A stretch of 64,000 nucleotides of DNA from [Phialemoniopsis] sp. UDSM-2020. Lineage: Eukaryota; Ascomycota; Sordariomycetes; Thyridiales; Thyridiaceae. A program made the position numbers and the translations under genes. The first letter of the stretch is position 1, and each line of letters starts with the position of its first letter. The stretch covers positions 2,046,001 through 2,110,000 of the forward strand of contig JAEILZ010000002.1 in the NCBI GenBank assembly GCA_018873225.1. The letters are read 5' to 3'. The notes beneath the pieces are model-generated. The model did no database searches and had not been told where the DNA came from. It was given only the letters and a program-made list of their open reading frames with translations. Below are positions 5,263-47,003 of the stretch, in pieces.

Positions 5263-6204
5263 TTACGTTTGCAGGTGCCCTCCATCAACATTCAGAGCAG
5301 CGCCAGTGACATATGTGCTTCTTCCACCTGCCAGAAACAGGATAGCATCTGCAATCTCTTCTGGAGCACCCCACCGGTGCATAGCTAGCTTTGTCTTGAG
5401 ATAAGGTAGCTGTTCCTCTTGATACTTGGCGTCAAAGTTTATCGGCGTGGCTGTCCAGCCCGGGGAAACACAATTGACACGAATACCTTGTCCAGAATGG
5501 TCCTCCGACGCGGCCTTGGTCAAGCCGACCACCCCGTGCTTCGCAGCGCAGTAGGCTGAGTTCTCTGGGTTCGCAACGTGTCCCTGGGTGGATGCGAGGT
5601 TGACAATACTGCCACGCTCTTGCCGAGATGTTCTAATGATAACAAACAGAAGCTCATGTTAGCACTGAATCATCAGGCAGGGCTGTTACGTATGCTTTAT
5701 GATGGGTTGTCACTAACCTCTCGGAAACAGTTCGTGGTTCTTGCTTCAACATGGCGCGTGCTTGAGCCCTGCTGCAAAAGAAGACGCCGTCGAGGTCGAC
5801 GCGCATGGTCCGACTCCATCCTGCGGTGGTCATGTTCGCAAACCTCCCACCATACAGAACGATGCCGGCGCTGTTGACGGCAAAGTCGAGCCGTCCGAAC
5901 TTTTGCACAGTCTTCTCTACCATGTCCTCTACCTGTTGCTCGTTGGAAACATCGACAACAGAAGGACCGTGAAGGATTGCCGCCTAGCCTCCGGCACGAC
6001 CTGAGTGACTTCATCGGTAACTTTTTCGAGGGCGGACGCGCTCAGGTCAGCTAAAGCTATTCCGAGACATCCTTCTCGAGCAAAAGCTACCGCGGTTGCT
6101 CGTCCGATACCGGATCCTGCACCGGTGACAAGCTGTTCATTGTCAGTGTTGGAGAGGGATAACGGGGAACAGATGAGACACACAGCATAGCCATTGACCT
6201 CCAT
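5263..6204 (-). CDS. Short-chain dehydrogenase/reductase, apparent frameshift
   Basis: Classical SDR oxidoreductase. Exons are 6204-6184, 6132-5718 and 5632-5263. The joined N-terminus MEVNGYALVTGAGSGIGRA carries the TGxxxGIG cofactor motif. Later come NSAG (NNAG-type motif), the serine region IVNLAST, catalytic YCAAK and the C-terminal VTGAALNVDGG. The frame breaks near 5985-5995: the part ending in VVPEAR and the part beginning AAILHGPSVVDVSNEQQ are one base out of register. Exon lengths total 806 nt, one short of 269 codons. A 38-nt intron (gttacc...ctag) would also repair the frame but is shorter than other introns here and has a weak donor. So this may be a decayed gene, an assembly error or an unusual intron. 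Confidence 0.75.
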
Positions 6205-6921
6205 TTTGTTTGTTTGTAGACGGCCAGTGAGTCTCAGTTGCAGTACTGGTTCGTCAAAGCTATTGGCTCTAATCCCTTGAGTTGAGAAATAAGACGACAA
6301 CAGCGATGATGTTTTCCAGAGAAGTAGCCATCATAGAGCCCAAGAAGATCTTCCTCTTCTTATACTCGTCCAATTAGGCTACGATCAGCTTGCGCTCTTG
6401 CACAAGCTTGAGCCCAACTTTCGAGTTCCCCAACATTGCGAATTTCCAACGCTACCCTTGTCCGCCCTTGCTCTACCCCGCAAAGGTAATGTGGAGCAGT
6501 GCTTGGCAAGCACTGCTTGCTAAGGTGCACTATGTCTCCCCGGTCAATGCCCCTGTAGCTTGCCTGAGTGGCCCTAGCCTGGTCGGTTGTTTATCCTCGG
6601 TTTGGACGGCTCGGGTGTTATAGCCGCGGGGATAGGGAGGCTCAAGAAGGGCGTTGTCCAAGTTTGACGATCAGTGAGATGGATCATGTCACTCGCGAGG
6701 GCCTTGGTGTCCTATGAACAGTGCTTCAGCATTTTCAAAAGATTGAAGGCTTGTCCCTGGCGTCTCCAGTTGCAAGAACGGCAGTTCTGCCTGAAACTAC
6801 ACTTGAGAAAAGGTCTCTTAGTCTGCTCAGAATAGGAGCTGTAACTACCACGCGCACATTGAAACACAAGATGGAATGAAATAATTGGCATGTGAGATTT
6901 CATCTAGGTGAGGCCTAATTA
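6205..6921 (-). promoter_or_regulatory. SDR promoter region and gentisate dioxygenase 3' flank
   Basis: 717 bp without a supported gene. It contains AGCCGCGGGGATA at 6622-6634. The same 13 bases recur at 12687-12699 in the regulator/transporter promoter. Confidence 0.45.
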
Positions 6922-15515: not shown

Positions 15516-16311
15516 GTAAGGAAACAAAGAGCTTTAGGGGATGAGGACTTGGTCAGTGGCCGCCATGATAAGTGCTGTCAGAAGTCAGATCTTCGCAGCA
15601 TCTTGGGACAAGTTTAGTGAAGCTCCATACAATATCTGTTTACTAGTGCCTGGTAACTATCATAGTGCCCTTGGGCCACGGTCATGACATTCATCCTGCT
15701 GTATAGCCAGTGCGGATCTCCTACACAGAAATGGAGTTGATTTGAATGGAAAGAATAGCAACATCAGACAGAGAAATAAAAGCATCTGTTGCCGATTTTG
15801 ACTGAGTTTCAGAGACACTGTGTTCCCAGACCAGGGTTGGCATGCAAGCATGCCATGCTGGAACAGCCGCTCGCCAGCGCGCACCAGTAGCTCGAAAGTG
15901 ATCCCGCCAAAAAACATTGGTTCCGAAAGGTTATGCGGGCATAAAAATCCGGTCACCATAAAGACCATTCAACAAAAGTGCCGGCATCACGATCTCCGCA
16001 CCAGTCCCCACGCCCCCCAGTCCCCCACACGTCGATTCAAGGCAAGCTTGGCCGGGGTAACGCCTAGTGTCGAATCACAACACTTACCGATATTTATTTT
16101 TCCTTCGGCACGAGGTCGCGTGATGATCGTCATTTGCTAGTTGCGATGCACAACTACGGTGACAGCATCACATCAACCCTTGATGTGTAACCGCAAGCTG
16201 CTTCCGGCTTCAAGTCGTTCAGCTATATAAGTAGCAGTACTCAGAAAGAGTCGTTCGAAGTAGACGATCATCACAGTTTGTCAATCGTATTGTGACCAAC
16301 CTTTGTTAGCC
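15516..16311 (+). promoter_or_regulatory. Upstream region of the apiosidase-like hydrolase
   Basis: 796 bp holding the MFS 3' flank and the glycoside hydrolase promoter. The only clear signal is TTCGGCACGAG at 16104-16114, the reverse complement of CTCGTGCCGAA, about 200 bp before the ATG. A TATA-like ctatataag lies at 16222-16230. Confidence 0.55.
16104..16114 (-). promoter_or_regulatory. CTCGTGCCGAA site, region B motif (copy 1)
   Basis: Read on the minus strand this is CTCGTGCCGAA. It is identical to the copy at 25192-25202 and one base from the three other copies. It lies about 200 bp upstream of the glycoside hydrolase start and is the evidence that ties that gene to the sugar cluster. 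Confidence 0.6.
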
Positions 16312-18009
16312 ATGAAGTTTCGTTCTTTGAGCCTACTTGCCGCCACGGCGCTCATTGAGTCTGCGTTATCGTCTGCTGTGCCTAAAACTGACTTTCCCTG
16401 GGCAAATGTGGCCATAACAGCGCCCTTGGAGGGACGGTATTTACATCGCACAAAGACCGGCGAACCTTTCATGTGGGTGGCCGATACAAACTGGGAGCTT
16501 TTCCACCGCCTCAACCGCACCGATGTCGACCTGTACCTTGCCGACCGGGCCGCCAAGGGGTTCACAGTGATCCAGGCGGTTGTCGTGTCCAAGTACAATG
16601 CAACCACATTACCCAACTTCTATGGGGATCTTGTCTTCGATAATGGTGATCCTACCACGCCCAATGAGAACTATTTCTCTCACGTCGACTGGGTCACAGC
16701 AAGAGCTGCGGAGTACGGTCTGGTCATGTGCCTTGTGCCTACCTGGGGCAGGTATGTGAACCATGGCTGGTATGGCACAGTCGGACCCATCCTTTTCAAC
16801 GAATCAAACGCGAAAACATTCGGCTACTTCATGGGCAAGCGCTATCCTGGCGTGCCCAAGCTCATGGGAGGAGACACCAACGGGTTCTGGGCCGACAACG
16901 TCCCTCAAGCCCGCGAAGCATGGAGAAAGAATACGACTGCAGACCCAACATCTTTCCTGGGACCCATAACCGACACCAGGAATGTCTGGGCTGCCATGAT
17001 GAAGGGCTTCAAGAAGGGCGAGGAAGAACACGGCTATGATGCATTCGTAGCCTTCCAACCTACCAGCCCTTATATCTCAGACCCACCAACACCTCTCCCC
17101 TATGGCCACAATGTGAGACACCTCCTCATTTCAAGATACTCAATGCGACTAGAATACTAATCCGAACGACTGTAGTACATCAATGGTTCTTTAGGTCGTT
17201 TATCCATGGATGCCGTTCAGTCTGGCCATGAACTTCCGGGTGCCAACGACGGTGACGATTTCAGCCCTCTTACATCATGGGACTCGACCAGGAACTACGA
17301 AAACATTATCCAGATGCGTGAGGAGTTTCCAGGTCCAGTCATGGATGTTGAGAATCACTACGAGGGTGCCAACTACGACTTCAATACCTCCAGGCCCTTC
17401 TGGAACGCGTCGGATGTGCGCCATGGGTTCTACAGTGCTGTGTTTAGCGGTGCATGTGGGTACACTTATGGAGGCCTGCCTGTTCAACAGAGCTACGAGA
17501 ACACGTCTCTCATTGCATCGCCCGGTCATTGGATCGAGCCACAGCTCTCGCTGTCACCTAACGCCAGCTGGCACGAGGGTCTCCACTGGCCGGGAGCGAA
17601 GCAGACTGGCTACGTCTGGAAGCTCTTCTCATCTCTCTCTCGCGAGGTCTTTGACGCGCTGGATCCTGCTCGAGAGCTCCTCTCGTCACCATACGGTGTG
17701 GCCGACGATATTTTGGCCTACGAGCAGAACCGATACGTCTCGGGTATCATCACCAAGGGTCACTACTGGGCATATGCGGGCTATGGTGACGCTTTTCAGC
17801 TTGATTTGGGCGCAATGTCGGAGCGTTGGGGGGAGCCTGGAGTTGAGATCAGTGCCTGGTGGTTTGATCCACGAACTGCGGATCGAACCGATATCGAGGA
17901 AATCGCCGGGTGCAACGCTGCTGGCAAAAAGCTGTTTGCTCCCCCAACAAGCGGCGGTGTTGACCATGATTGGGTCTTGGTCGTGAAGTCTAAGAACGCT
18001 TGTTCTTAG
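16312..18009 (+). CDS. Secreted DUF4038/apiosidase-like (GH140-type) glycoside hydrolase
   Basis: Extracellular TIM-barrel glycosidase; characterised relatives release apiose from plant rhamnogalacturonan II. Exons 16312-17112 and 17176-18009 give 544 aa. The N-terminus is a signal peptide (MKFRSLSLLAATALIESALSSA). The barrel begins with GRYLHRTKTGEPFMWVADTNWELFHRL, followed by FVAFQPTSPY and, across the intron, PYGHNYINGSLGRLSMDAVQSGHE. The next part contains MDVENHYEG, which includes a probable catalytic carboxylate, then RHGFYSAVFSGACGYTYGG. The C-terminal part (ISAWWFDPRT to HDWVLVV) matches the putative collagen-binding beta-sandwich common in this family. Several NxT/NxS sites are present. 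An upstream in-frame TTG is ignored; the ATG precedes the signal peptide. The family is known from Bacteroidetes and fungi; exact substrate unproved. Confidence 0.85.
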
Positions 18010-18345
18010 GAGTGACCTCGTCATATATATACTATCTTTCACGATTGAGTTGCTTTCTGCTGTAATGGTGCTTAGGTAGCATCCAGTCGGGTATCAATCG
18101 CAACTTGACGACATACTCGCCCCATGCCTGCCTTGTGTGACTTGCTTACACATCTTCCCGCTGGAATTTCAGATTTTTCACGATGATTGCCAATTACATA
18201 GTGGCCATTCAAATTCGCCGAATAACAGGACACTTTTACCTGGGGGTTAACGGTGAAGCGGACAAGACTTGACACCCTCACTGCACAACTTGTAGATCGC
18301 TGAACCTAATCTGCGATGAGGCTTATTACTACAACTACAAAACTT
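18010..18345. other. Intergenic, convergent
   Basis: 336 bp between the 3' ends of the glycoside hydrolase and the kinase gene. No gene or shared motif seen. Confidence 0.6.
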
Positions 18346-20241
18346 TCATTGAAAGATAATATCAAGCCCCTTTGCAAGGCCAGCCAGTATTTCGTACACT
18401 GCCCAAGCGCCCGGGTCCGGCAATTCCTGCCCCTTGGCGTCACCGACATATGTGGCGCGGCCAAAGCGCGCCTTCAAGTATCGTGAGGCCTCTGCCTTGT
18501 CCGCAGCTACCTTCACAGCTGATGCAAAATCTCCATGTTGACCGAACTCTGCTACAAAGGGGAGCAACACGTCCATGACTGTCCGGTCACCCTCTCGCGC
18601 AGCCGTGTGTGACTTGAGGGCATCGATTGCCGACGACAGAGCCGCTGCGTACACCACCGACGATTTCGCGTCAACGGAAGGATCTTCGCGAAGCCTTCGT
18701 TCAAGTGCGGCAGCGAATGCCGATATCAGGATCCCGAGAATGGCGCCGAGTGTGCCGCCCATGTCATCTAGGGCGTCTATCAAAGAAGCCAGAAAGCTCG
18801 TCACAGATCCAGTAGACGCTACACCTTCGTCCAAGCTGCGAATGACTGCCTCTGCGAGTCCCTTGACGGCTTCGCCACAGTCGCCATCACCCATTACCAT
18901 GTCCCACTCAGTGAGCTTCGGTTCAGCGTCAATTGCGAATTTGCAGGCGGATCGAATGCCACTATCGAGTAGCACCGGGTCGACGCTGAGGCTGTTAGCA
19001 CCCGCGGTGGTTTCCGAGACCTGCGGTTCAGGCACTGTAGTCTCCGACCTTGGTGCACTGGGAGGAGGGCGAGAAGTGTTTGGCCAAGCAACCGCAGTGG
19101 TGGCTCTGTCGAACCAACGTACTAACTGGTCGACGGCGACTTTAGCCTGTCTCGCAGCGGCAGAAATGTTGCAGAGAGATATAGAGAAACCTGGGGCATT
19201 CAGAGATGTCTCATAAGTGCCTGACAGTGTTCGGCAAGGCTTGATGTTCCAGTTCGCCTCTAGCTGCTGTAGAACCACGCTCGTGATGGCGCCAAGCTCC
19301 AATGGTGACAGACCACCGTAATTGTTGACACAAAGCATCACGCGGTCCTCGCCTTCGAATGGAACGAAAGCCCTCTCTGCGTCGGAAGGATCACACAGTC
19401 GTTTCAAGCATCGGTCAACCAGGTCGTCCACAGATGGGAACGGCTGGATCAACTCTTGCCCAGGTTCGTTGTGAATACCGGCTCCCAAAACACAGACATC
19501 GTCGCCAACTGACTGCATTTGTCGGCCTGGGACGTGGCAATGATCCAACGCCGTGCCGATAGACACGGTCTGGTCATTGACAGCCCTCCCCAACTCCAAG
19601 CATTCTTGAAACGGCTGCTTTTCAGCGGCTGCTGCTCCAAGAATCTTCATAGCTACAGCGAAATGACAGTCAGCGAATATCCATAAAAGTTCCCCCATCG
19701 AGTTTCCAGACATAGCCTCCAGCTGCGTGCAGTTGTCTAGATTTCAGAAGTCATACTTACTGAATACGTGACCTGGCATACCTCTCCTACCCACTCTGCT
19801 GCTCTTATTTCTTCCAATTGAGACATCATCCGTGAGAGCCAGCACTGCAACGTTCTCCAAACCTTCGGCTTTCGCCCTCTCTGCTGCAAGGCCAAAATGC
19901 AGTCTGTCACCCGTGTAGTTGGTGATCAGAAAGATGACACCTTCGCGCGACGGGGCCATGCGCATCGCAGCGAGGACTTGTTTCGTGCTTGGTGAGGCAA
20001 AGAGGTCGCCACAAGCTGCTGCAGCCAGCAATCCCTCTCCGACGAAGCCGCTCCAGGCCGGTTCGTGGCCGGACCCTCCGCCTCCGATGATGCTCACAGT
20101 GTTGGCATCGTGATATGCATCCGCCACAGCGCGCTCTGGCTCGTTTAGTGCAAGATGAGGATTCGCAGCGACGAGAGCATGAAGGAAACAAGGCACCAAA
20201 GTGTTTGCTGCAGTCGAGGGGAAGTAGTGCTTAGTGGACAT
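18346..20241 (-). CDS. DhaK-DhaL ketose kinase (dihydroxyacetone kinase family)
   Basis: ATP-dependent kinase for a short ketose. The family covers dihydroxyacetone, and known bacterial and yeast members act on erythrulose. Exons 20241-19761 and 19652-18346 sum to 1788 nt, or 595 aa, starting MSTKHYFPS; an in-frame ATG at 20265 would add eight residues. The junction gives GHVFTMKILGAAAAEK. The DhaK domain shows the glycine loop GGGGSGHEP and the covalent substrate histidine in GAGIHNEPGQE. A Ser/Pro-rich linker follows (about 350-385). The DhaL domain carries the ATP/Mg motif GDGDCG and GGTLGAILG. It is divergent from the aldolase across a promoter with a perfect palindrome. With the RpiB-type isomerase next door, an erythrulose- or apulose-like substrate is more likely than plain dihydroxyacetone; that is inference. 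Confidence 0.9.
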
Positions 20242-20265
20242 TGTGTCTATAATCCGTTGTCGCAT

Positions 20266-20684
20266 ACATATGTGTTACCGGGCGTTGAGCTATCGCCTGG
20301 CGGATCTGGGACTCGAAGTCACTCATCATTTCGGGTGATTTATCAAGAGATACCGTCACGGTTCATGACAATATGCTTCGTTTTGCATCACTAACAACAC
20401 ATGCCCGATGAGTCCACAGAGCTAGGCTACTTACCACATTCCCGAGCTTTCTCGGCACGAGAAAGCGCCCCGCATCTACCAACGCTAACAGACACAATGG
20501 GCGGACCCCGAGTCACGCACGCAGAGACTAGCTCCAGCTAAGTCATCATTCGATACTGACATGCTTCTGAAGCTTCAAGGACTACTCAGGCAGTTGAGTT
20601 CCTAGGTGAGATGTTATCTACTCTACAACAGCAGCTGAAGTACGCCTTGATGTGATCTGTAGCTGCACAACTTCCCAACTCACC
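20266..20684. promoter_or_regulatory. Bidirectional promoter, kinase / aldolase
   Basis: 419 bp between divergent start codons. Its centre holds a perfect 9+3+9 inverted repeat at 20446-20466 that includes the region B motif. Confidence 0.6.
20446..20466. promoter_or_regulatory. Perfect palindrome GCTTTCTCG-GCA-CGAGAAAGC, motif copy 2
   Basis: Nine-base arms around a three-base spacer. The inner 11 bases, CTCGGCACGAG at 20451-20461, are the reverse complement of the copies at 21892-21902 and 28725-28735. It lies about 190-220 bp from both start codons, a typical place for a dimeric Zn2Cys6 operator. Confidence 0.65.
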
Positions 20685-21615
20685 ATGGCACCCTGGGATC
20701 CGACAAAGAACAAGACCTACCAGATTTTGAAGGCAGCAGAAGAAGGTGGTTATGGTGTCCTTGCGCCTATTGCCTACAATATAGAGCATATCCTTGCAGC
20801 CGTAGCCGCTGCAGAGACGAAAAGATCACCACTCATCATTCAAGTTTTCCCTTGGGCTATTACTTTCTCCAATGGCTTGCTAGTACGCGCAGCAGCGATT
20901 GCAGCTCAGAATGCTTCTGTGCCTGTAGCCATTCATCTCGATCATGCTCAGGACGAGGCATTGATCCGCGAGGCAGCGGATAAGCTTCCGTTCGACAGTA
21001 TCATGGTTGATATGAGTCACTACGAGATGGACGAGAATCTCGTAAAAACTAAAGTTCTCGTGGCTTACTGTCAAGAGAGGGGTATTGCTACCGAGGCGGA
21101 GCCTGGCAGAATCGAAGGCGGCGAAGATGGTATTGCTGACACGGTCGATATGGAGGGCGCATTGACAACGCCGGAGCAAGTCGAGGACTTCATTGCAACT
21201 GGTATCGATTTCCTCGCGCCTGCTTTCGGGAATGTTCATGGCGAATATGGCTCGAGAGGTCCGGTGTTGGAGTATGATAGGTAAGTCCATCAAGATAAAG
21301 ACAACCGTCAAGCATCTCCAGATCAAAGCTAACAACTTATTTAGGCTAGACAGAATTCGCGAAGCTGTTGCTGGAAGAGTGCGGATTGTTCTTCACGGCA
21401 CAAATGACTTCCCCGAGGACGTCATGCAGAAATGCATCAGTGGAGGAGTATCAAAGATCAACGTGAATAAGCTGGTCCTTGACGACTACCTGCTCCATCT
21501 CAAGGAGAATGCCCCCAAGTTGGGTCTGACAACCTTGCTAGAACAGGGGGTCAAGGAGGCCCAGAAGCTGATGGAGTGGCAAATGGACGTAATTGGCTCG
21601 ACTGGCAAGGCATGA
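20685..21615 (+). CDS. Class II ketose-bisphosphate aldolase (GatY/KbaY-like)
   Basis: Zinc-dependent aldolase that would split a phosphorylated ketose into dihydroxyacetone phosphate and an aldehyde. Exons 20685-21280 and 21345-21615 give 288 aa, starting MAPWDPTKNK. Zinc-ligand regions are visible: HLDHAQD, GNVHGEYG and VLHGTNDFP. The last resembles the LHGASD-type loop of tagatose-bisphosphate aldolases rather than the HGGSG loop of fructose-bisphosphate aldolase, so the housekeeping enzyme is unlikely. In plants the same domain is fused to threonate-dehydrogenase-like domains; here the two are separate genes in one cluster. It is divergent from the kinase, suggesting sequential phosphorylation and cleavage. 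Confidence 0.9.
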
Positions 21616-22169
21616 ACCTATCTGAGTAGCTACAGTTTGTGTTGTTCTTCTGTAGAATAGCAGGAGTAAAATCGTACCAATGTTGGCCATGATCTTTCGA
21701 TTTTTTAGTGGCCGTCAAGCCACTATCGGGCAAGTTCTTGTTTTTCGGTTCGAGTAACATGGGGATGATTTGTGCCGACAAAGGAAAAATTACTTACATA
21801 CAGGCCAACAATAGCTTGCGATACAGGTTTCTTGCTGCGGTATCGCTCCCGAGAGCAAGTGCGGATCCATTCATCTCCACCAATTTCTCACCTCGTGCCG
21901 AGTTTGTGGATCCGTTGCCAAGTGCGTAGTGATCACATGGAACATCACTCTTGTTGGCATGGCCGACTTACAAGGACATTGGACTGTGAGAGTCGATGAT
22001 TTTTCTTCAATTGAGCGTAGTGAAGGGTGGGCAAGCATGCATGTGACCTGTTGAGTCCCCATTCAATTGCATCTTTGTAATTATCAATGATTACACCGGG
22101 GACCATTGCTAATCATTTTGATCATAACAGCTCGGTATTACTTCAACTCGAACAGACAGGGCTTTTTCA
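21616..22169 (+). promoter_or_regulatory. Upstream region of the RpiB-type isomerase
   Basis: 554 bp without a gene. It holds the aldolase 3' flank and, at 21892-21902, one CTCGTGCCGAG site. Confidence 0.5.
21892..21902 (+). promoter_or_regulatory. CTCGTGCCGAG site, region B motif (copy 3)
   Basis: Exact 11-base match, on the opposite strand, to the centre of the kinase/aldolase palindrome. It lies about 270 bp before the isomerase ATG. Confidence 0.6.
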
Positions 22170-22716
22170 ATGTCTCAAATGCGCATAGCCATCGGTGGTG
22201 ACGATGCAGGGTTCTCATACAAGTCCATCATCGCCAAGGACCTCGCTGCCAACGAGCGAGTGAGCGAGGTCGTGGACGTCGGGCCCCATGGACAAGAAGA
22301 CAAGACTGCATACTCTAGCAATGCCATTGCGGCGGCGGAAAAAGTGGCCAGCGGCGAGGTCGACCGTGCGCTTCTGATATGCGGTACCGGATTGGGCGTC
22401 GCCATCGCTGCCAACAAGGTCGAGGGCGTCCGCGCCGTCACGGCACATGACAGCTTTTCAGTAGAGCGTTCTGTTTTGAGCAACAACGCCCAGATCTTGT
22501 GTCTGGGCCAAAGAGTCGTTGGTATTGAGCTTGCTCGGAGGCTTGTCAAGGAGTGGCTGGGCTATCATTTCGATCCTGTAGGTTCAGCCGCGTGTTCCCG
22601 TACTTTTCTTGAGACTGTGTTGCTGACATTGCATGGTTTAGACATCGGCATCCGCCGCGAAGGTGGAAGTAATCGAGAACTATGAGACAGAGAAGAGGAT
22701 TTCTGTGACAAATTGA
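22170..22716 (+). CDS. RpiB/LacAB-type sugar-phosphate isomerase
   Basis: Aldose-ketose phosphate isomerase. RpiB interconverts ribose/ribulose 5-phosphate; relatives handle allose, galactose and erythrulose phosphates. Exons 22170-22577 and 22642-22716 give 160 aa. The N-terminal [15 protein letters not shown], the active-site loop [15 protein letters not shown] and [26 protein letters not shown] are typical. The spliced end reads [18 protein letters not shown]. The usual catalytic Cys is present in ICGTG. Fungi use RpiA for the pentose phosphate pathway, so a clustered RpiB points to a special substrate. DhaK-type kinase plus RpiB-type isomerase is the known combination for erythrulose phosphate conversion in mycobacteria and for erythritol use in Yarrowia. 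Confidence 0.9.
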
Positions 22717-22894
22717 TACCTCAAGTCAATGATGTAGAGAGAGTCTCGATGAAGCAGTAACAGAGTGGACGGGTAGAATGGAGCTTAATATTGATGAGAG
22801 CCGACTAAGCTAGAAACCGGACTGAACACCATGTGTTGGACCATCAATTTCAGACATTGGACCTTGTTTCAATGTGATTCTTGTCTATCTAAAT

Positions 22895-24947
22895 CTAAGC
22901 CCAAAATGCAGTAAGCGCTGCAACAGAACGATCATCTACCCTGTTATCGTTTGTTGCTCCCCGAATAACCTTCTCCGCCGCATCTAGCATGTTTGCAGGG
23001 AAATTCTGCTCTGTGATAACTTTATTCAATATGTCCTAGTTGTTTGTTAGAAGACTTAACACGAGTACCTCTCGACGAGGTAAGGATAGGTTGATCTTAC
23101 AAGAGTGTTAAGGGCTGCATTCAGCGTATCAGATCGAGTCGCTACTTTCGAGCTGAAAGATTGCGTTACCATGTTAGGAAAGTAGACGTTGAACTGAGCG
23201 CTGGACCCCGCGGCACCAGCAATCAGGTCGTAAACAAGTTGGGGAGAGACGTTTTCAGACCGGGCGAGACTGTAGCACTCTGCCGCCGCTGCTGCATGGA
23301 CTAGAGCTCCGTGTTGAATAACAAGCCACGTGGCAGTAGCGGTGCCCGGACGACCATGCACGGGGACCCCAACGATGGTTTCCGGCAATACGTCTCTAAT
23401 CTGAGTTGACATCTCATTGCTTTCTGCACTGAACAGGAGCTGATTTGGCAATTAGCACGATATGCTCAGTTCTCGTTTGGTGTCTTGAATGAACTTACCT
23501 CTAGATGGGAGAGATCTTGTGAGGGGAGAACATGGCAATCCGTAACCCTCAGATGTGGGAACTTGCAGGCTAGTTCGTCCGCATAACTCTTCACCTTTTG
23601 TGGATGGTGTAGCTTCGTTATCGCCACCACACTCCCCTCAGGAAGCTCTTCGAGAGACTTCTCATCGGCCTCTTCAGAGATGATCAATAATGACGGACCG
23701 CTACTCCGAGGAACCTCAGAAGTAAAGACGGCTCGAAGCTGTCCCGTGACACTCTCTGCCATCGACACACCAGGCAAAGCTTTCGCGGATAGTGTTTCTT
23801 CATTGGGTGGTGTAGGGAGTGGCTTATGGCTTATCTCGTCGCAAACCCGACTGCCGATGATCTCTTCGTAGTTGCAGACAACACTTGCATCGTCATCCCG
23901 ACCATGGCCTGCGGCATCTCGGGCGAGAAAGGCCTGAAGTGCGGCTAATGTAACTGGAGAGGGAAATGATGTCTTGTCTGCCGCCTGCTTGACAATTCCC
24001 TGTCAATGATATCCTGGTCAGCAAGAAAACCGCTTGTTATGGGAGACGTTCAAGAACATACGAGATCCTTGATAAAGATAGATACGGCAGATCTCGGGGT
24101 CCAGTCTGCCTTGAGCATTGTCACCCCCCGATCGCCAAAGATCCAGCTGCCTGCAATGCTCTTCATGACGATACGATGCGTTTCGCGCACGGAAAGTCCT
24201 AATAGCTTCGCAAATGAAAGCATCTCGGCTGCTGCCACAATGTGAGTACCAGCTAAGAGCTGGTTCAGCCTAGGGACTGGTCAGTACCTTTTTACTCCCT
24301 CTGCGGGCGCCGTAACCTACATCTTGATTGTACTGGCGGAACCCAATGGGCCGCAGCAAAACAATCGATTATTTGCTGCCATAGGAAGTAGATATGGTTT
24401 CAATTCCTGGTAGACTGTCGTGTCCGACCCGATCATAATCTGTTTGCGGCACATGTGTGAGGAAAGTTATAACTGAACGAACTCTCTTGTCCAGCATAGA
24501 AATTTGTAGATCGTAGTAGAATATTTTACTTACACTGAGTGTACCAGATTCTGCTCCAACAACGCCTCCAGATACCGGACAGTCCAATAGGCGTATATCC
24601 GTCCTGCCGCTTTTGGCCATCCTCGCAGGCAGGTCTAAGATATAATTTGGCGGCAGCGTACTCAAGAGACATAGTATAGCGTTTTCCGGTAGAGAGCATA
24701 GCAGACCATCTTCAGAAAACACTACAGAGTCGACCTGTCCAGGAGTCGCGACCATGACGAAAAAGACCTTGCTGCTTTTGCCTGCTTCGGACACCGATGT
24801 CGACACAGTCCCGCCATTCTCTGCGAACCTCTTCAGAGCATCTGGATTGAGATCAAATCCAGTAACTCTTACTCCGGCTTTCAGCAGATTTGTGGCCATT
24901 CCGAAGCCCATGGCTCCCAGGCCTGCGAAACCCACAGGTTCATACAT
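22895..24947 (-). CDS. L-threonate dehydrogenase-like (HIBADH family) tandem protein, second half degenerate
   Basis: NAD-dependent beta-hydroxyacid dehydrogenase family. Six exons (24947-24534, 24439-24321, 24269-24062, 23999-23499, 23439-23101, 23035-22895) give 573 aa, about twice a single-domain enzyme. The first half has the Rossmann motif GFAGLGAMGFGMATNLLKAG, the substrate motif DCPVSGGVVGAESGTLS and the catalytic lysine block GSASTIKMLNQ. The second half aligns with the same C-terminal helical domain, but its lysine block reads GTATATWLVIQ, with Lys replaced by Trp and Asn by Ile. Its Rossmann part is shortened and lacks a glycine motif. So only the first half should be catalytic. An in-frame ATG at 25055 would extend the N-terminus by 36 residues. 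It shares a promoter with the AKR gene. Confidence 0.85.
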
Positions 24948-25445
24948 CTCTCCTGGTTGCAGTGGAATCTGGAGGTGTGAACGCTCCGTAGGCAAGGTGA
25001 AAGAAGCCAGTCGTGAAAGCGGAGTAAGACGAGTATAATCAGTGATAGCATACATATTCAGGACACCATTATGCTTTCAATGATTGACTGATGCCGACAA
25101 AGGCACGGATGTCATCGAGGACGGCGGAGTCGGTCCACTAATACAAGTGGAACCAATCAGAGTGACTCGCGAAGTGCCAAGCATTCAGAATCTCGTGCCG
25201 AAATGGAGAACGAAGAGTGGGATAACCCGGCGAGCACGCAATAAGCTAAGGGCAAATCTTCGGGCAGGTTCTCCGAATTGCGGACATCATGCCGGCGCAA
25301 GTTTCCCAATGTCAATTCTCACGATCGTTCATGGGCTGTAGATTGAAAAACTACCCTGACCTGCATCAACATACCTTGCCGGCAATTCCCACCATACAGA
25401 GAGCAGTACCCGTACAAGCCACACCACGCGCAATTCACACTCGCC
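24948..25445. promoter_or_regulatory. Bidirectional promoter, threonate-dehydrogenase-like / AKR
   Basis: 498 bp between divergent genes, with one region B motif at 25192-25202 and no gene. Confidence 0.55.
25192..25202 (+). promoter_or_regulatory. CTCGTGCCGAA site, region B motif (copy 4)
   Basis: Same 11 bases as the glycoside hydrolase promoter copy read on the other strand. It lies about 245 bp from both start codons. Confidence 0.6.
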
Positions 25446-26558
25446 ATGTCGCCTCCAAAGAACCGCCTCATCCTTGGCACCATGACCATCGGTCCCGATG
25501 AGTCCATGGGTGCGCGGATTACATCTATGGATGAGTACAAGAAGTGTCTCGACTACTTGACATCCAAAGGCTACGACGAACTCGATACCGCCGCTGTCTA
25601 CGTCGGCGGTCTCCAGGAGGCATGGACGCGCGATGCCGGCTTCCGGGAGCGCGGTTTCTCCATTGCGTCCAAGATCATGCCAAAGCAGCCGCACGACCAC
25701 AAGCCAGAGAAACTGCGCGCGTCGTGGGAAACCAGCTTGCAGAAGCTCGGCGTCGAATGCGCCGATATCCTCTACCTCCACGCGCCTGATCGCACCACGA
25801 GCTATGAGGAGACGCTTGAGGGAGTAGACAAGCTGTACCGCGAGGGCAAGTTCAAGAAGCTAGGCCTCAGCAACTATGCGGCTTGGGAAGTCGCTGAAAT
25901 AGTTGGCATCTGCGAGCGAAGGTACGCTGTCTCAACTGTCGGTAGCCAAGACCACGTGGAACTAATGCTATGGACTTTGAAGGAACTTTGTCAAGCCTAC
26001 CATCTACCAGGGAATGTACAACGCGATAAGTAAGTTCTCAGATGTTTCATTGGGCGAACCCCATCAGGATCTGCCTGAGCTAACTATGCAGACCGAACAC
26101 TCGAGTCCGAGCTCGTACCGTGCTTGCGAAAGTTTGGTCTCTCTCTGATTATTTACAATCCATTAGCAGCTGGGTTGTTCTCCGGAAAGTATTCGACGCT
26201 GGACGAGCCTGCTGAGGGGCGCTTTAGCACGACCAACAACCTTGGCAAGCTCTATATGGACAGGTACTTCAAACAGTCCACTCTGGATGCTCTGGCCGTG
26301 GTCGAGCCTGTAGTGAAGAAACATGGAATCACCCTGATCGAGACTGGACTGCGGTGGTGTGTGCATCACAGCAAATTGCAGATGCGCTCACAGCCCGAGG
26401 GTGGAGATGACGGTATCATCATTGGCATTAGCTCATATTCTCAGCTTGAACAGAATATCGAGGCTTGTGAGAAGGGGCCATTGCCAGACGAGGTAGTGGA
26501 GGCCTTGGATAAAGCGTGGCACATCACAAAAGCAGACGCAGCGACCTACTGGCGGTAG
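25446..26558 (+). CDS. Aldo/keto reductase, AKR7 (aflatoxin-aldehyde reductase)-like
   Basis: NADPH-dependent carbonyl reductase in the cytosol. Exons 25446-25921, 25983-26029 and 26092-26558 give 329 aa. The 47-nt middle exon restores [32 protein letters not shown], a hallmark segment of AKR7. The catalytic tetrad regions are visible: ELDTAAVYVGG (Asp, Tyr), the lysine in SIASKIMP and the histidine in ILYLHAPDR. LIIYNPLAAGLFSGKY and the NADPH-binding IIIGISSYSQLEQN complete the fold. In this cluster it may reduce an aldose or ketose, for example to a polyol; substrate not readable from sequence. Confidence 0.88.
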
Positions 26559-26691
26559 TTCTTGACCAGTTGTACAGACGCTCAAGTCAACAAACACGAA
26601 CAAATAATTATAGACTTTTTTGACAGAGTGGCTTGATCTCATTGTGCTCCCCTCATGAGTCTCGAATCCACTTTCAAAATGGGTTGACGTC

Positions 26692-28634
26692 TCAATTACA
26701 CAAGCCCCAGTTCCTGAGAAGCTCGTCCGCAATGAAACCGGTCTTCCTGCCAGTCTGGCGTTGGCAATTCTTGATCAGCTCCAGTGTTCTTTTCCTCTCT
26801 TGCAGTCCTTCCGTCACTAAACCAGCTATGTACAAACACTGCGCAGACAAAAGACTCAATGCATCGGGGATGCCAGCATTTGCTGCTAAAAACACTTGCT
26901 CGCGTGAACGTTCGATTTCACGGCGAACTGAGAGCGAAGAGCACTTATTGAGGCCCCGTGGTGTTTGTAGCAGAGCTGGCTGATATAGCGCAAGAACAAT
27001 CTTGCTAGCATGATAAACTTGGTGAGCTACAGCTATTCCGAGCGAGGACGAGGTCAGAGATTCACAGCGCGAAGATGTTATTTAGAGGGTGGGACATACC
27101 GCATTGAGGATAGATAAACCATAGTGAAGGAAAATCCACCTCTAAGTCATCGTTGGTGGAGGGCTCTATCCGGAAACATGCCATTGCGAATGCTGCATTC
27201 GTTTGCCACTCGTCAAGAGCTAACGCCAGCTGGACCGCCCTTTCATTTCTTGACTGGAGAACTGATTCGGGGCCTAGACCGTCTCCTACTTCATGGCCGT
27301 TAGAGTAATCAATGCATTGCCCGAGAATGAAGATGGCTCGGTTGGCGATGTCTTCAACTTCCAGACCCTCAAACGATCCAGAGGGCTTCCAGTATGATTC
27401 GCTTAGGGAAATCTGGCGTCCGGTCTGAAGTGCTGCCCAGATCTCGTGTCGGTACCAGATCCAGTAGGCCGCCCCACGAACGCCATGCATATCACCTTGT
27501 ACCTGACGGGACTGAAGCAATGATGCTACCCCTTTTAGGTGTGAACCGAGATTCTCACCGGCAACATCGATCATCTCATAGCTATTACAACATAGTCAGA
27601 CGAAAGAGGACATCTGAATCAAAGTCACGAGGACAGCTTACGTAGACAAAAGAATGCATGCCGCCAAGACTTCATCACTATGGGCATACTGTGAATGAAG
27701 AAGGAGCTCGCGCACCATCTTGAGCGCAGACCTGTAGTATCGCAGTGGGGTACTCTCGTGAAACTTGGACGCCACATGGCTTCCTACAAGGACCATTTGC
27801 TTGGATGAGAGAGCTAAGCAGGACTGCATCAGGAGTGGGCATCGTAGCGCCCAAATTGACACGAGGCGACGAAAGGGTCGATCATGTGAGAAGGAGTCAA
27901 CCTTAAACATGCCTTAGCAACCACTTCGAGCTTGAAGAAGCAACCAGTAAGCTACGTACCCATTTGGAAACGTATTCCACGTAGTTTCGGAAGATGAGGA
28001 TCTCAGGTCCTGTCAACCTAATTCGCTCATCAACGAAGAGATCAGGTGGGACAGGAACGACCGGCCATCCGAATGATGCGCCATCGATGTGATCGGCTGT
28101 CTCCGGAATGTTCCTTGTTTGAGCGGCGTCGTCCGATACTCCAGGAACCGAGGTCCATTGCTCCAAGTTGATGAGAATGGAACCCAGATCAGCAAGGAAC
28201 GGCGAGCCAGCACTTGGTGTGGATGCCTGCCATTCCGTCGACGCTGGATACTGTAGTGCCTCGTGCTGCAGCAAGCTTGTCGATTGATCGGGAGGAACGC
28301 GCCTCTCAAGCAAGGGTGATCCGGAAAGGTCTTGCTGGACGACGGGCAAGGGCGTCCCGGTCTCCGGTGTTGCTGCTGCCGGCGACCCGACGCTTTCCAG
28401 ATCATCCGCTGGTGGGTCGTACTCGCATGGCCTGTTCTTCTTGGCACAATTGGCACATTGGGGCTTGCGCTCATCGCACTTGACGTGGCGCCTTCGACAT
28501 GTTCGGCTATTCTCAGCAGGTCAGCAGACGCGTTCAGAACTTGCCGAGACTCATCGACCATACCATCCAGTCGTCACACGCAGACCGCGAATCCGAGGCC
28601 GTGGCGTGTGGCCTGAGTGCCTTGCATCAGACAT
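26692..28634 (-). CDS. Zn2Cys6 transcription factor (Fungal_trans_2 type)
   Basis: Probable regulator of region B. The start is the ATG at 28634. Removing a first intron (gtatgg...aatag) yields TTGCRTCRRRHVKCDERKPQ, followed by CANC and the last Cys in RPCEYD: a complete zinc cluster of the GCxTCRxRHxKCDExxPxC type. A long Ser/Thr/Pro-rich region follows, then the ARCA-like fungal_trans_2 region with YEMIDVAGENLGSHLKGVASLL and GAAYWIWYRHEIWAALQTGR. The C-terminus ends WGLCN. About six exons; not all junctions were checked to the base. A region B motif lies 91 bp upstream of its ATG, suggesting autoregulation or shared control. Convergent with the AKR gene. Confidence 0.87.
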
Positions 28635-29037
28635 TCCGGGGATGCTGTGGGGGAGTGATGTTGCTGAGCTCGAGGCCCTATGAAAGGACATAGCGAGGTT
28701 TAGGAACAGAGGGAGATGTGCGAGCTCGTGCCGAGATATTTAAATATCCCCGCAAGCGAGTTTTTATGGCCTTTGCCGATCCCCGGACCACATAGCGTGG
28801 CTCGCGGCGCTAACTGACTAGCAGGTGTGGAGGAGAGGATCATGCCTTGAAAACCATGCTAGCGACCCCAGTATCCGGTTGCATCGCAGGATGGCTTGCA
28901 TCCGAAAAGGGTTGAAATACCCCGTGGGAAACCCGTCCAGTTGAGACAGAGGAGGTCAACTCAATCCTTCAGACCTCTTTCCCGGCATCCGCCAACATCC
29001 CCAGCCCATTTCTATCAATCTTGACCACTGAGCAACG
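28635..29037. promoter_or_regulatory. Bidirectional promoter, Zn2Cys6 regulator / ACS-type MFS
   Basis: 403 bp between divergent genes, with one region B motif at 28725-28735. A TATA-like atatttaaatat follows at about 28736-28747. Confidence 0.55.
28725..28735 (+). promoter_or_regulatory. CTCGTGCCGAG site, region B motif (copy 5)
   Basis: Exact match to the copy at 21892-21902. It lies 91 bp from the regulator ATG and about 300 bp from the transporter ATG. Confidence 0.6.
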
Positions 29038-30806
29038 ATGGACGAGCAGTCAAAGATGGAGCAGTCATCGGCCAAGCTGGACTGCGTTGAAAAGGCGCCA
29101 AACGAAGACTCTGCCAACACTGAGACTCTGTACGACGAGGCAGAAGTCAAGAAGATCCTTCGCAAGGTCGACTGGCGGCTGATTCCCATGCTCACTTTGC
29201 TTTATATCCTGTCCTTCATCGACCGAAGCAACAGTAAGTGCTTGCTCTACGGTGTCTGCGAAGAGATCAATCTTTAACAAAGCTACAACCTCTAGTCGGA
29301 AATGCAAAGGTAGCAGGCATGAACAAAGACCTGCACCTGACTGGAACACAGTACAACATTGCGTCAGTACCCCGGTCCACACATCAATCTGTTGTGAATT
29401 AAGGCATTGACACTATACAGATTGACCGTCTTCTTCTTCCCGTATGCGCTGCTCGAAATCCCCAGCAACATGGTACTCAAAGTCATCAAACCTTCCCTCT
29501 GGGTGGGCATCATGATGGTCACCTGGGGGGTCGTCATGACTCTCATGGGCATTGTCAAAGATTATCCGAGTCTTGCTGGCGCACGAGCTGCTGTAAGTTC
29601 AGTTGTGCGAGAATACGAGTCGAGGGCCCGAGCTAACCAGGATACACCATCAGCTTGGTGCGGCAGAGGCAGGTTTCTTCCCAGCAAGCACATATCTTCT
29701 CACGACTTGGTACAAACGCCTCGAGCTACAGAGCAGAATGGCCGTGTTCTACTGTGCTGCGTCTCTAGCTGGTGCGTTCTCGGGCCTTCTGGCCTTTGGC
29801 TTGCAGGAGATGGACGGTATCGCAGGGTTGGCCGGGTGGCGATGGATCTTTATCATCGAGGGTATCGTCACGGTCGTCGTGGGCTCCACCTGTTTCTTTC
29901 TCCTGCCCGATAGCCCCGACACCGCATCGTTCCTTAAGCCCGCCGAGCGCAAGTTTTTGGTCGACCGCCTACGTAATGACAGTGGCACCAAGGCCGGCAA
30001 AGTCCAAACACACGACAAGTTCCACCGGCCCACTATCAGGTCTGCCTTTTCGGATTGGAAGCTTTGGCTAGCCGTGATTATCTACTGGGTAAGAAGCTTG
30101 TTATATCAATTCTCCGTTTTGGACTAAACGGTTCGCTGTCGCTGCTTGCTTTGCTGACATTGCCCCCCAGGGTAACACTATTTCGATCTACGGCTTCAAC
30201 TACACCGCGCCTACCGTCATTCTCGGCCTCGGATACACGGCTGCACAGGCCCAGTTGCTCACCATACCGATTTATGTGCTCGCCGTCATTGGTACACCCG
30301 TCATCGCTTACTACTCCGACAAGCACAAGACGCGTTGGCCATTCATCGCCGGCCCGTACTGCATCTCAGCCATCGGCTTCGTCGGTCTCTTGTCCATTCC
30401 CCATCCTAAGCTACCCGGCCTGACCTATGCCTTCCTCTTCTGTATCCCTGTCGGCGTCTTCCCTCCTCTGATCGGTCTGGTCTCGTGGGTTGCCAACAAC
30501 ACCGCGCCGTCGTGGAAGCGTGCCGTCGCCATGGCGTTCCTCATCATGATGGGCAACCTTGGAGGCACCGTGGGCAGCAACATCTACCTGGAGGAACAAA
30601 AGCCGCATTACTGGCTCGGCTTTGGTATGGGTCTGGGCATCTCTATCGCGGCCATCATCTCGACCATCGTGCTTAAATTCGAGTACCAGAGACAGAACCG
30701 CCTGCGCGAGGCTATGGGCACGGAGGGGGAGATCTTGGCTCGGTACACCGAAGACGAGCTGCTCAAGATGGGTGACAAGAGCCCCTTGTTCCGGTACATC
30801 GTGTAG
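29038..30806 (+). CDS. MFS transporter, anion:cation symporter (ACS, Dal5-like) family
   Basis: Plasma-membrane proton symporter; the family typically carries carboxylates, vitamins and allantoate. Exons 29038-29233, 29296-29362, 29421-29592, 29654-30088 and 30171-30806 give 501 aa. The start segment KKILRKVDWRLIPMLTLLYILSFIDRSNIGNAK is the family hallmark. GAAEAGFFPASTYLLTTWY and GWRWIFIIEGIVTVVVG follow, then a loop, then IYWGNTISIYGFNY across the last intron. About 12 hydrophobic segments, cytosolic ends. It shares the promoter and motif of the region B regulator, so it is a good candidate importer for the cluster substrate. An ACS carrier hints that the substrate might be a sugar acid rather than a free sugar. 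Confidence 0.92.
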
Positions 30807-43115: not shown

Positions 43116-44771
43116 CTACTCCTTGTTCTCTATAGTCTCTGCGGTTCCTGCCACAGCGTCGATCTTGGTTGTCTTGAACTTGCGAGCATTGATCTTCTTG
43201 TCAAACAGGATATCCAATTCACCGTAGGTCCTTCCAGCCGGCTCGGGAAGTCGGAAGAAACACCACACTGCGCAAAGCAGGCAGATGCCGCCCCAGAAGA
43301 ATCCCGCCTTTCCTTTCCAGTTCCAGGCACTAGGATTGAGCATGTACGGCGTGAGCACAGCGTTGATGATGCCAAAGATGTTGTACAGGCTACGAGCGAG
43401 CACCACAGTCTTGGGACGGAGACGTGTCGATGGCATCTCGGCCACCAGCGAATAGCACACAGGCCCGACGAAGATGTCGTAGCAGAACGTGAAGACCAAA
43501 AGCATGGATCCGATCGCCCAGCTGGATGCGACCGTCTGGCTAGAGACCGAAATAATGCCGATGATAAACAGCAGCACGTCGAGGACGATGAGGCCCCAGA
43601 AGTAAAGCGTGCGTCGCCCGAAATAGCTCATGGCTACCCACGAAACGAGAGTTCCCAGGCAGGCAAGACCGCCTTGACCAAGGGACATATTGAAGGACTG
43701 CGTGACTGGTAGTCCAGCTTGCTGGCAGAAGTAGGTAGAGTAGCCCATGAAAGAATTGCCGCAGAGGTTCTGGATGGACCACACTGCGCACGCGATTTCC
43801 GTCCGACGCAGGTTGACTCCCTTGAAACAGTCCCAGTAGGTTGTACCGGCCGTGACCTCCTGTTCCATCTCGTTCGTGTGCACCATCATAGCAATCGTCT
43901 TGTCGGGGTCGAAGTTGGTCTTGCCTTGCATCTTTCGACTGGTGAGACGTAGGAGGGACTTTCGGGCTGCGTCAAGACGGTCCTTTCTCACCAACCACCA
44001 AGGCGACTCGGGCGCCAGGATGACTGCAACGAGGATTGGCAGTGGAAAGGACCATTGGATAGCGTATGGTACCCTCCAGGACCATTGGTCGGATGCAGGA
44101 CGGCCCACGAAGCCTCGCATAACACCAGCTTCTATAAATTGTCCCAATGTCCAACAGAGGTTCACGTATGTTGTCAGATAGGGGCGGAGGACGACGGGGC
44201 AGACTTCGGCGGCGTAAGTGGTCGTGATAGTCTGGAAGATGCCCCAGGGTATGCCCGTCAGGACATACCCAGTCTCAAGCATCCCGATATTGGTAGCGAA
44301 GAACATGATAAAGATGAAGCCGACCATCGCAATCAGAGATCCTATCATGACTTTTCGGTAGCCATACTTCTCCGAAAGAATACCACTAGCAAGCAGGCCG
44401 CAGATTTCACCAACATGTGCGCCGTTGGAAAGTCCGGACTGCCATGGAGCAGTAACCTGGTAAGTACCATTGGGCTGCTTCACGCCGAAGCGTTGCTGAA
44501 AGGCAGGGAATGCGTAAAGTGAGCCGAGGAGGTACTTGTCGTAGCCCTCCATGATCAGCGCGGATGAAAGTGCAATCGACCAGGCTGCAGCCTTGGGATA
44601 CAGCTTCAGGGATTCGATCAGTGACATTTGGTGCTCAGATGATGTCGCGTCCTGGACAAAGCCGAGGAATTCGGAATCTTTCTTCGGATCATGGTCCAAG
44701 TCTACCCGGCCAGCAGCCTCGACGTGCGACATGCTGTCCCTGCCGGGCTTTTCTTGGGCGGGGACGGCCAT
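43116..44771 (-). CDS. Alpha-glucoside (maltose) permease, MFS sugar porter
   Basis: Proton-coupled import of maltose or similar alpha-glucosides. Intronless, 551 aa from the ATG at 44771 (MAVPAQEKPG). The upstream open frame lacks family similarity and is excluded. Sugar-porter signatures: GLLASGILSEKYGYRKVMIG, PESPWWLVRKDRLDAA and a PESPR-like position, GYSTYFCQQAGL, FGRRTLYFWG and the C-terminal RLPEPAGRTYGELDILFDKKI, which is typical of fungal MAL permeases. Twelve membrane segments. It is divergent from the Zn2Cys6 activator and shares a palindromic site with the maltase promoter, forming a MAL locus. Confidence 0.93.
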   Translation of the reverse strand: MAVPAQEKPGRDSMSHVEAAGRVDLDHDPKKDSEFLGFVQDATSSEHQMSLIESLKLYPKAAAWSIALSSALIMEGYDKYLLGSLYAFPAFQQRFGVKQPNGTYQVTAPWQSGLSNGAHVGEICGLLASGILSEKYGYRKVMIGSLIAMVGFIFIMFFATNIGMLETGYVLTGIPWGIFQTITTTYAAEVCPVVLRPYLTTYVNLCWTLGQFIEAGVMRGFVGRPASDQWSWRVPYAIQWSFPLPILVAVILAPESPWWLVRKDRLDAARKSLLRLTSRKMQGKTNFDPDKTIAMMVHTNEMEQEVTAGTTYWDCFKGVNLRRTEIACAVWSIQNLCGNSFMGYSTYFCQQAGLPVTQSFNMSLGQGGLACLGTLVSWVAMSYFGRRTLYFWGLIVLDVLLFIIGIISVSSQTVASSWAIGSMLLVFTFCYDIFVGPVCYSLVAEMPSTRLRPKTVVLARSLYNIFGIINAVLTPYMLNPSAWNWKGKAGFFWGGICLLCAVWCFFRLPEPAGRTYGELDILFDKKINARKFKTTKIDAVAGTAETIENKE

Positions 44772-46953: not shown

Positions 46954-47003
46954 AAAACTACTTCTGTATTCAACTCTCTTCCGAGGCCTTCTTGACGCAG
47001 TCC

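Follow-up and report, generated by a model that had tools for sequence, protein, structure and literature searches.

The subject of this analysis is a 64,000-nucleotide stretch of the genome of the ascomycete [Phialemoniopsis] sp. UDSM-2020 (contig JAEILZ010000002.1, positions 2,046,001 to 2,110,000), hereafter the window, and within it a block of eight genes whose upstream regions share an 11-bp word, CTCGTGCCGAR. We propose, with a probability of about two in three, that this word serves as the operator of the eight genes, which together form a pathway-specific regulon, that it is bound by the block's own Zn2Cys6 regulator, and that the substrate of the pathway is likely apiose. The word stands before every gene of the block and is no commoner than chance elsewhere, which makes it a probable binding site for the switch protein that the cluster itself encodes. 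That the block forms a single regulon is very likely: this claim, which was first made, with the glycoside hydrolase included, in an earlier reading of the window from its sequence alone (the sequence-only reading), is well supported by controls over all words, by the genome background, and by the fit of the motif to the block. A motif that marks the whole block suggests where its borders lie, draws the hydrolase into the pathway, and names a candidate regulator, and it also provides a handle for finding the same regulon in other fungi.

Operator sites

An exact search of the window finds precisely five copies of CTCGTGCCGAR, at the coordinates and on the strands that the sequence-only reading had given, as compared with a mean of 0.06 and a maximum of 2 in dinucleotide shuffles (n = 100). 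Under the gene models built here these copies occupy, as had been claimed, five of the five upstream intergenic regions of the eight genes, three of the five being divergent promoters, and they lie 90 to 302 bp from the predicted start codons (n = 8).

16104..16114, minus strand: operator copy 1, CTCGTGCCGAA, in the promoter of the GH140 gene, start codon 197 bp away
20451..20461, minus strand: operator copy 2, CTCGTGCCGAG, in the divergent kinase/aldolase promoter, start codons 209 and 223 bp away
21892..21902, plus strand: operator copy 3, CTCGTGCCGAG, in the promoter of the RpiB-type isomerase gene, start codon 267 bp away
25192..25202, plus strand: operator copy 4, CTCGTGCCGAA, in the divergent dehydrogenase/aldo-keto-reductase promoter, start codons 136 and 243 bp away
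28725..28735, plus strand: operator copy 5, CTCGTGCCGAG, in the divergent regulator/transporter promoter, start codons 90 bp (regulator) and 302 bp away
20446..20466, no strand: 21-bp dyad around copy 2, with perfect 9-bp arms and a 3-bp centre, computed from the sequence
21744..21754, minus strand: weaker dyad CTCGAACCGAA, with arms as in the operator and another centre, a second site in the isomerase promoter

The larger palindrome that had been noticed around the copy at 20451 is real. The invariant part of the operator is CTCGTGCCGA, and its core, TCGTGCCGA, consists of TCG and its complement CGA with three bases between them. The half-sites CTCG and CGAG, as previously proposed, describe the three copies that contain the full dyad CTCG-N3-CGAG, but not the other two, which end in CGAA. 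The shorter form TCG-N3-CGA occurs 6 times over the five promoters, where 0.77 copies are expected, and hits all five; among spacings of 0 to 12 bases between TCG and CGA, none besides N3 is found in more than two of the five promoters. Allowing one mismatch to the 11-bp word adds a single match in the window, at 5617-5627.

The flanking sequence differs among the five operator copies, which are thus not copies of one longer repeat; an origin as a repeat or duplicated segment is ruled out by these unlike flanks together with a genome count equal to that of the control (given below). The half-site TGCCGA was also considered as a second signal, as it occurs 9 times in the five promoters against about 2.5 expected; 5 of the 9 lie inside operators, and the 4 outside them are not striking.

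Two further sequence features were observed apart from the operator. A 12-bp word, TGCCGACAAAGG, is present at 21773-21784 and 25092-25103, in the isomerase and the dehydrogenase/reductase promoters outside their operators, and is unique to these places in the window. The only other perfect 9-3-9 dyad in the window, GCAGTGCTTGGCAAGCACTGC at 6496-6516, is unrelated to the operator.

Expected frequency and genome-wide distribution

As the motif was picked post hoc, we used a control over all words, namely the longest word with one two-fold position that is present in all five promoters. In the block this word has 11 letters. Dinucleotide-shuffled promoters (n = 300) gave a longest word of 8 letters in 3 cases, 7 in 237, and less in 60, while random draws of five segments (n = 1000, same lengths, from 60 other genome loci) gave 9 letters in 2 cases, 8 in 46, 7 in 860, and less in 92. 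The genomic draws omitted the central 80 bp with the site, and since their segments are mostly coding, the dinucleotide shuffle is the closer control.

Genome-wide (44.18 Mb, 11 contigs) the exact operator word is found 69 times, compared with 70 times for the reversed-pattern control, and with up to one mismatch 1715 times, compared with 2143. At the rate of the 64 sites outside the block, 0.018 sites would be expected in its 12.63 kb; the probability of at least five is 1.7e-11, or 6e-8 once multiplied by the number of such windows. The operator word is not generally enriched in the genome and is concentrated in the block.

We examined 62 of the 64 other sites, leaving out two that are both on C11. 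By a rough coding score, which placed 2 of the 14 coding and all 13 of the non-coding points of known status below its cut-off, 46 of these sites are coding and 16 non-coding, whereas all five block copies are non-coding (Fisher P 0.002). The 16 comprise 15 loci and include one site, L009:4418, that is coding by eye. Frames next to 11 of the 15 loci were scanned for families, one of them without a match; the other 4 loci have no frame above score. The site is upstream of sulfatase, GH75 chitosanase, and glucose-receptor-like G-protein-coupled receptor (GPCR) frames (L019, L034, and L051), and of a HET protein frame. Other frames beside non-coding sites encode a sugar transporter (3' end), a P450, a poly(A) polymerase, a prephenate dehydrogenase, Sec23/24, an AhpC/TSA-type protein, a tRNA synthetase, and a weak alpha/beta-hydrolase match under the cut-off.

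The nameable genes beside non-coding sites have no pathway in common, and we take the sulfatase, chitosanase, and GPCR sites for chance in preference to distant targets. The sequence-only reading had named a motif common in unrelated promoters as the result that would speak against it. The genome count at background and the coding score of 46 of the 62 other sites favour the reading, though a few frames with an upstream site, such as those of the sulfatase, chitosanase, and GPCR, may be distant members of the regulon. The one other close pair of sites in the genome, on C10 (533 bp apart, L009), one before and one inside a frame that appears Zn2Cys6-like by eye, was treated as chance, and a site at C6:2720353, about 1.4 kb from a Dak1 gene, scores as coding.

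Genes of the block

Gene models were built from the sequence and checked in frame, and families were assigned by Pfam, NCBIfam, and solved-structure matches. The eight models are as follows.

16312..18009, plus strand: GH140 apiosidase-like glycoside hydrolase, 544 amino acids (exons 16312-17112, 17176-18009; PF13204 E 4.7e-93; PDB 8t9w "Apiosidase" E 7.8e-56)
18346..20241, minus strand: single-chain dihydroxyacetone-kinase-type kinase (Dak1 + Dak2), 595 amino acids (exons 19761-20241, 18346-19652; Pfam; TIGR02361)
20685..21615, plus strand: class II aldolase of the fructose-bisphosphate (FBP) type, 288 amino acids (exons 20685-21280, 21345-21615; PF01116 E 2.6e-83)
22170..22716, plus strand: RpiB/LacAB-type sugar-phosphate isomerase, 160 amino acids (exons 22170-22577, 22642-22716; PF02502; TIGR02133)
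22895..25055, minus strand: tandem L-threonate-dehydrogenase-like protein, six exons, 609 amino acids (PF03446, NAD_binding_2; PF14833, NAD_binding_11, 2 stretches)
25446..26558, plus strand: aldo-keto reductase, 329 amino acids (exons 25446-25921, 25983-26029, 26092-26558; PF00248)
26692..28634, minus strand: Zn2Cys6/Fungal_trans_2 regulator, 566 amino acids (exons 28564-28634, 27960-28506, 27642-27901, 27100-27581, 26692-27032; PF00172, Zn_clus; PF11951)
29038..30806, plus strand: major facilitator superfamily transporter, 497 amino acids, an approximate five-exon model with one junction uncertain (PF07690)

To the eye, the N-terminus of the hydrolase looks like a signal peptide; among solved structures its nearest relative is 8t9w, named Apiosidase. 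In GH140, with BT1012 as the model, the catalytic residues are an Asp and a Glu. The GGD and DxE segments of the block's enzyme can be aligned with 8t9w and 3kzs. The kinase scores above the NCBIfam cut-off for glycerone kinase (TIGR02361), its best solved chain being 26vk, a dihydroxyacetone kinase. Compared with plasmids, the aldolase reaches a best identity of 37%, and the annotated matches carry FBP-type names. The isomerase is above the cut-off of TIGR02133 (RPI_actino) and gives 150 bits, below a cut-off of 240, with NF051858, D-erythrulose-4-phosphate isomerase. The best NCBIfam match of the dehydrogenase, for which an alternative start 36 codons later is possible, is NF043037, L-threonate dehydrogenase (287 bits, below the cut-off of 350).

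Substrate and catabolic route

Apiose, a rare branched plant sugar, is a constituent of many plant glycosides as well as of rhamnogalacturonan II, a domain of pectin. Because the hydrolase is of the apiosidase type (PF13204), the sugar, to which the sequence-only reading had given no name, is probably apiose, and the block, to judge from its protein families, probably frees and breaks down this sugar with enzymes unlike those of the bacterial route. General family knowledge suggests how this might proceed. The GH140 enzyme, presumably secreted, would free apiose from plant pectin or apiosyl glycosides, and the sugar would be oxidised to apionate, a branched C5 acid. The threonate-dehydrogenase-like enzyme would then convert apionate to a 3-oxo acid, which would lose CO2 to give L-erythrulose, and this would be phosphorylated by the dihydroxyacetone-type kinase and directed by the RpiB-type isomerase towards erythrose 4-phosphate. 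The full proposal, of a fungal apiose regulon with its own operator, its own catabolic route via erythrulose, and a Fungal_trans_2 regulator reading TCG-N3-CGA, is a tentative one to which we give appreciably less than even odds. No fungal apiose breakdown cluster was found among the open-licence papers listed.

Relatives in other organisms provide a partial view of which genes belong together. Among the candidates scored, 28 proteins are related to the regulator at E <= 0.001, with 12 in Aspergillus and 5 in Penicillium, and five of the species with dehydrogenase relatives at E <= 1e-100 recur among the regulator matches listed. The regulator and dehydrogenase genes are adjacent in Aspergillus brasiliensis (tags 003628 and 003627), and both lie on a 174,094-bp contig in Colletotrichum sojae, on a 21,955-bp contig in C. 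plurivorum, and on a 5.68 Mb scaffold in Aaosphaeria arxii, where equal size suggests that in each case the contig or scaffold is the same one. The relatives of the hydrolase are headed, among the best 120 of 2831, by Phyllosticta capitalensis (75%) and Colletotrichum karsti (66%); in Fusarium decemcellulare the hydrolase and dehydrogenase matches come from different assemblies. Across species, the regulator and dehydrogenase appear to be a steadier pair than the hydrolase and the rest, and the membership of the hydrolase in the regulon is indicated by its operator and position here, not by synteny elsewhere.

In Rhizobium gallicum, a dehydrogenase 40% identical to that of the block has a sugar-phosphate isomerase, DhaK, and DhaL in its neighbourhood, where a LysR gene lies in between, which suggests that dehydrogenase and kinase can share one pathway. 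Listed plant and fungal relatives of the dehydrogenase include long fusions with PF07005/PF17042, which we take to be a DUF1537-type kinase, and one unnamed relative also carries PF01116 (class II aldolase); these fusions tie the activities to one pathway. As to a bacterial context of the hydrolase, no relative was found in the genome-contig collection searched. The apiose operon of E. coli was also compared with a Shinella neighbourhood that has a related dehydrogenase, and was set aside given that the transketolases, at 31-35% identity, are not specific.

In all, the genome to which the window belongs carries three apiosidase-type and four RpiB-type genes, several aldolase genes, and about nine Dak1 places. 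Outside the window, RpiB and Dak1 genes are grouped at three further places, C10:3.20 Mb, C5:1.75 Mb, and C5:2.53 Mb, in two of them with an aldolase gene. The stretches fetched around the other apiosidase genes (C1 and C8) contain no exact operator, and a one-mismatch site is located downstream of the C1 gene.

These relatives bear on a different account of the substrate, which we regard as possible though doubtful, in which the pathway is one for a different sugar acid or tetrose (threonate, erythrulose, or an erythritol-like compound), the GH140 gene being a later recruit or its enzyme having some other glycan as its target. The dehydrogenase best fits L-threonate dehydrogenase, the isomerase and kinase fit tetrulose or triose pathways, and the genome has three further kinase/isomerase modules. 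Moreover, regulator relatives are present in many Aspergillus and Penicillium species among the matches listed, while in the best 120 of 2831 GH140 matches the two genera are represented by a single species, A. stella-maris, absent from the regulator matches. An apiose pathway is favoured, however, by the operator of the GH140 gene, which stands at a distance like that of the other block genes, by the very strong PF13204 match, and by the name of the closest solved relative.

Reader of the operator

The regulator at 26692-28634 is likely the reader of the operator, as the sequence-only reading had proposed. The assignment is plausible given the Zn_clus and Fungal_trans_2 domains of the protein, the operator copy that lies 90 bp upstream of its start codon, and linkage of its gene to a dehydrogenase gene elsewhere. 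The zinc-cluster segment is well kept in most of 14 aligned relatives, and the majority consensus of the 15 aligned proteins is LRVTTGCxTCRxRHVKCDExKPxCxNC. We hypothesize that a dimer of this protein reads TCG-TGC-CGA, that is, inverted TCG half-sites 3 bp apart, widened to CTCG-N3-CGAR, and that the bound regulator switches on the hydrolase, kinase, aldolase, isomerase, dehydrogenase, reductase, and transporter together, activation being the presumed direction of control. The inducer would probably be apiose or an early product, and the operator before the regulator's own gene could allow autoregulation.

A second cluster in the window (43116-50911) encodes a sugar transporter, a Zn2Cys6 regulator, an alpha-amylase-family enzyme, and a sulfatase. 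A perfect palindrome, CTCGGTCCGAG, occurs in it at 45096 and 49004, upstream of likely start codons and with CCAAT words nearby by eye; the outer arms of this palindrome are those of the main operator and its centre is different. CTCGGWCCGAG is found at 29 places genome-wide, below 49 for the reversed control, and with one mismatch at 3 places in the window, a number equalled by 8 of 100 shuffles. As a regulatory word, the palindrome is suggestive only.

It would be unlikely, though compatible with a true operator of the block, that the reader is another factor, whether a general plant-wall regulator or a Zn2Cys6 protein from another locus, which would have the local regulator as just one of its targets. 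Such a factor would fit with dyads of the same outer arms beside a different regulator gene at 43-51 kb, and with about 15 of the 62 other sites being non-coding and three of them upstream of carbohydrate-related frames, and binding by the local regulator is itself a prediction. Conversely, a word at genome background whose nameable neighbours have no common pathway makes a global regulator unlikely, a reading that we rejected with 46 of the 62 other sites scored as coding, and other fungi show linkage of the regulator gene to one of the block genes. A chance coincidence from looking at many words is very improbable. The motif was indeed chosen after the fact and has five sites only, but at least 10 letters were reached in 0 of 300 shuffles and in 0 of 1000 genomic draws.

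Observations weighing against the proposed regulon

Several observations weigh against an apiose regulon confined to the block and read by its own regulator. With regard to the reader, the arms CTCG-N3-CGAG recur in the second cluster beside another regulator gene, so the arms alone do not assign a site to one protein. The sulfatase, GH75 chitosanase, and GPCR frames touch on carbohydrates, and the regulon may thus extend past the block with a few distant members. For each of the three paralogous kinase/isomerase modules a single promoter stretch of some 0.9 kb was read, and none of them has the operator with up to one mismatch; this fits a word tied to the block and not to an enzyme type, yet zero sites in three such promoters is also the chance expectation. 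With regard to linkage, the regulator and dehydrogenase genes of Thozetella are on separate contigs, linkage of the hydrolase with the rest of the block was not seen in the species compared, and the hydrolase and dehydrogenase genes of Clonostachys byssicola and C. chloroleuca lie on separate contigs or carry tags that are far apart. With regard to the route, Pfam shows no dedicated decarboxylase or lactonase among the eight block proteins, and by family the kinase and aldolase look like an ordinary dihydroxyacetone kinase and FBP-type aldolase. Finally, the bacterial apiose route uses an FGGY kinase and transketolases, as in the annotation of E. coli SE15, and both are absent from the eight block proteins by Pfam. 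The block instead encodes a dihydroxyacetone-type kinase, an RpiB-type isomerase, a class II aldolase, a threonate-dehydrogenase-like enzyme, and an apiosidase-type hydrolase.

Comparison with known systems

The arrangement is that of a pathway-specific fungal Zn2Cys6 regulon, which is a known kind, and the block has both an encoded regulator and a shared word. The Yarrowia erythritol cluster has a Zn2Cys6 factor, a dihydroxyacetone-type kinase, and an RpiB-type isomerase. Promoter motifs ATGCA, CGGAT, and CGGCTT are reported for this cluster and its regulator EUF1 (PMC10935855); the block resembles it in having its own transcription factor and promoter motifs, with an operator word that differs from the motifs reported there. 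A bacterial D-apiose degradation cluster includes aplK, aptA, and aptB (PMC13001218), and the block would resemble it in the clustering of genes for the use of apiose, if that substrate is correct.

In terms of the operator itself, the spellings TCGN3CGA and CTCGN3CGAG were not found in the literature searched, and the G form of the word, CTCGTGCCGAG, was found there in two papers, whose titles are unrelated to the subject. The word TCGN5CGA occurs in the aflatoxin literature and is the site of AflR. A similar site, TCGGN3CCGA, is proposed but unproven for GliZ, and is placed before every cluster gene but two (PMC4006717). The block shares with AflR and GliZ the inverted TCG/CGA half-sites of cluster-specific Zn2Cys6 regulators, whereas theirs are 5 bases apart and those of the block 3; TCGN5CGA has zero copies in the five block promoters, where AflR/GliZ-type spacing is thus not seen. 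The Lys14 site of Saccharomyces cerevisiae, TCCRNYGGA (quoted in PMC3601966), likewise has inverted triplets 3 bp apart, which are TCC/GGA in Lys14 and TCG/CGA here. One regulator relative carries the name LYS14 in its source, but as Lys14 of Candida albicans reads a different motif (PMC3601966), the likeness is loose.

RhaR of Aspergillus nidulans is a Zn2Cys6 regulator whose gene stands in divergent orientation to a catabolic gene, and it controls a rhamnose breakdown gene together with secreted glycosidases; its site is CGG-X11-CCG, and rhaR is described as not controlling its own transcription (PMC4245848). By analogy with this RhaR/LRA regulon, one regulator in the block would preside over both a sugar breakdown gene and a secreted glycosidase. 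The block differs from it in having the word TCG-N3-CGA in place of CGG-X11-CCG, in having a site before the regulator's own gene, and in comprising other enzymes than the rhamnose set.

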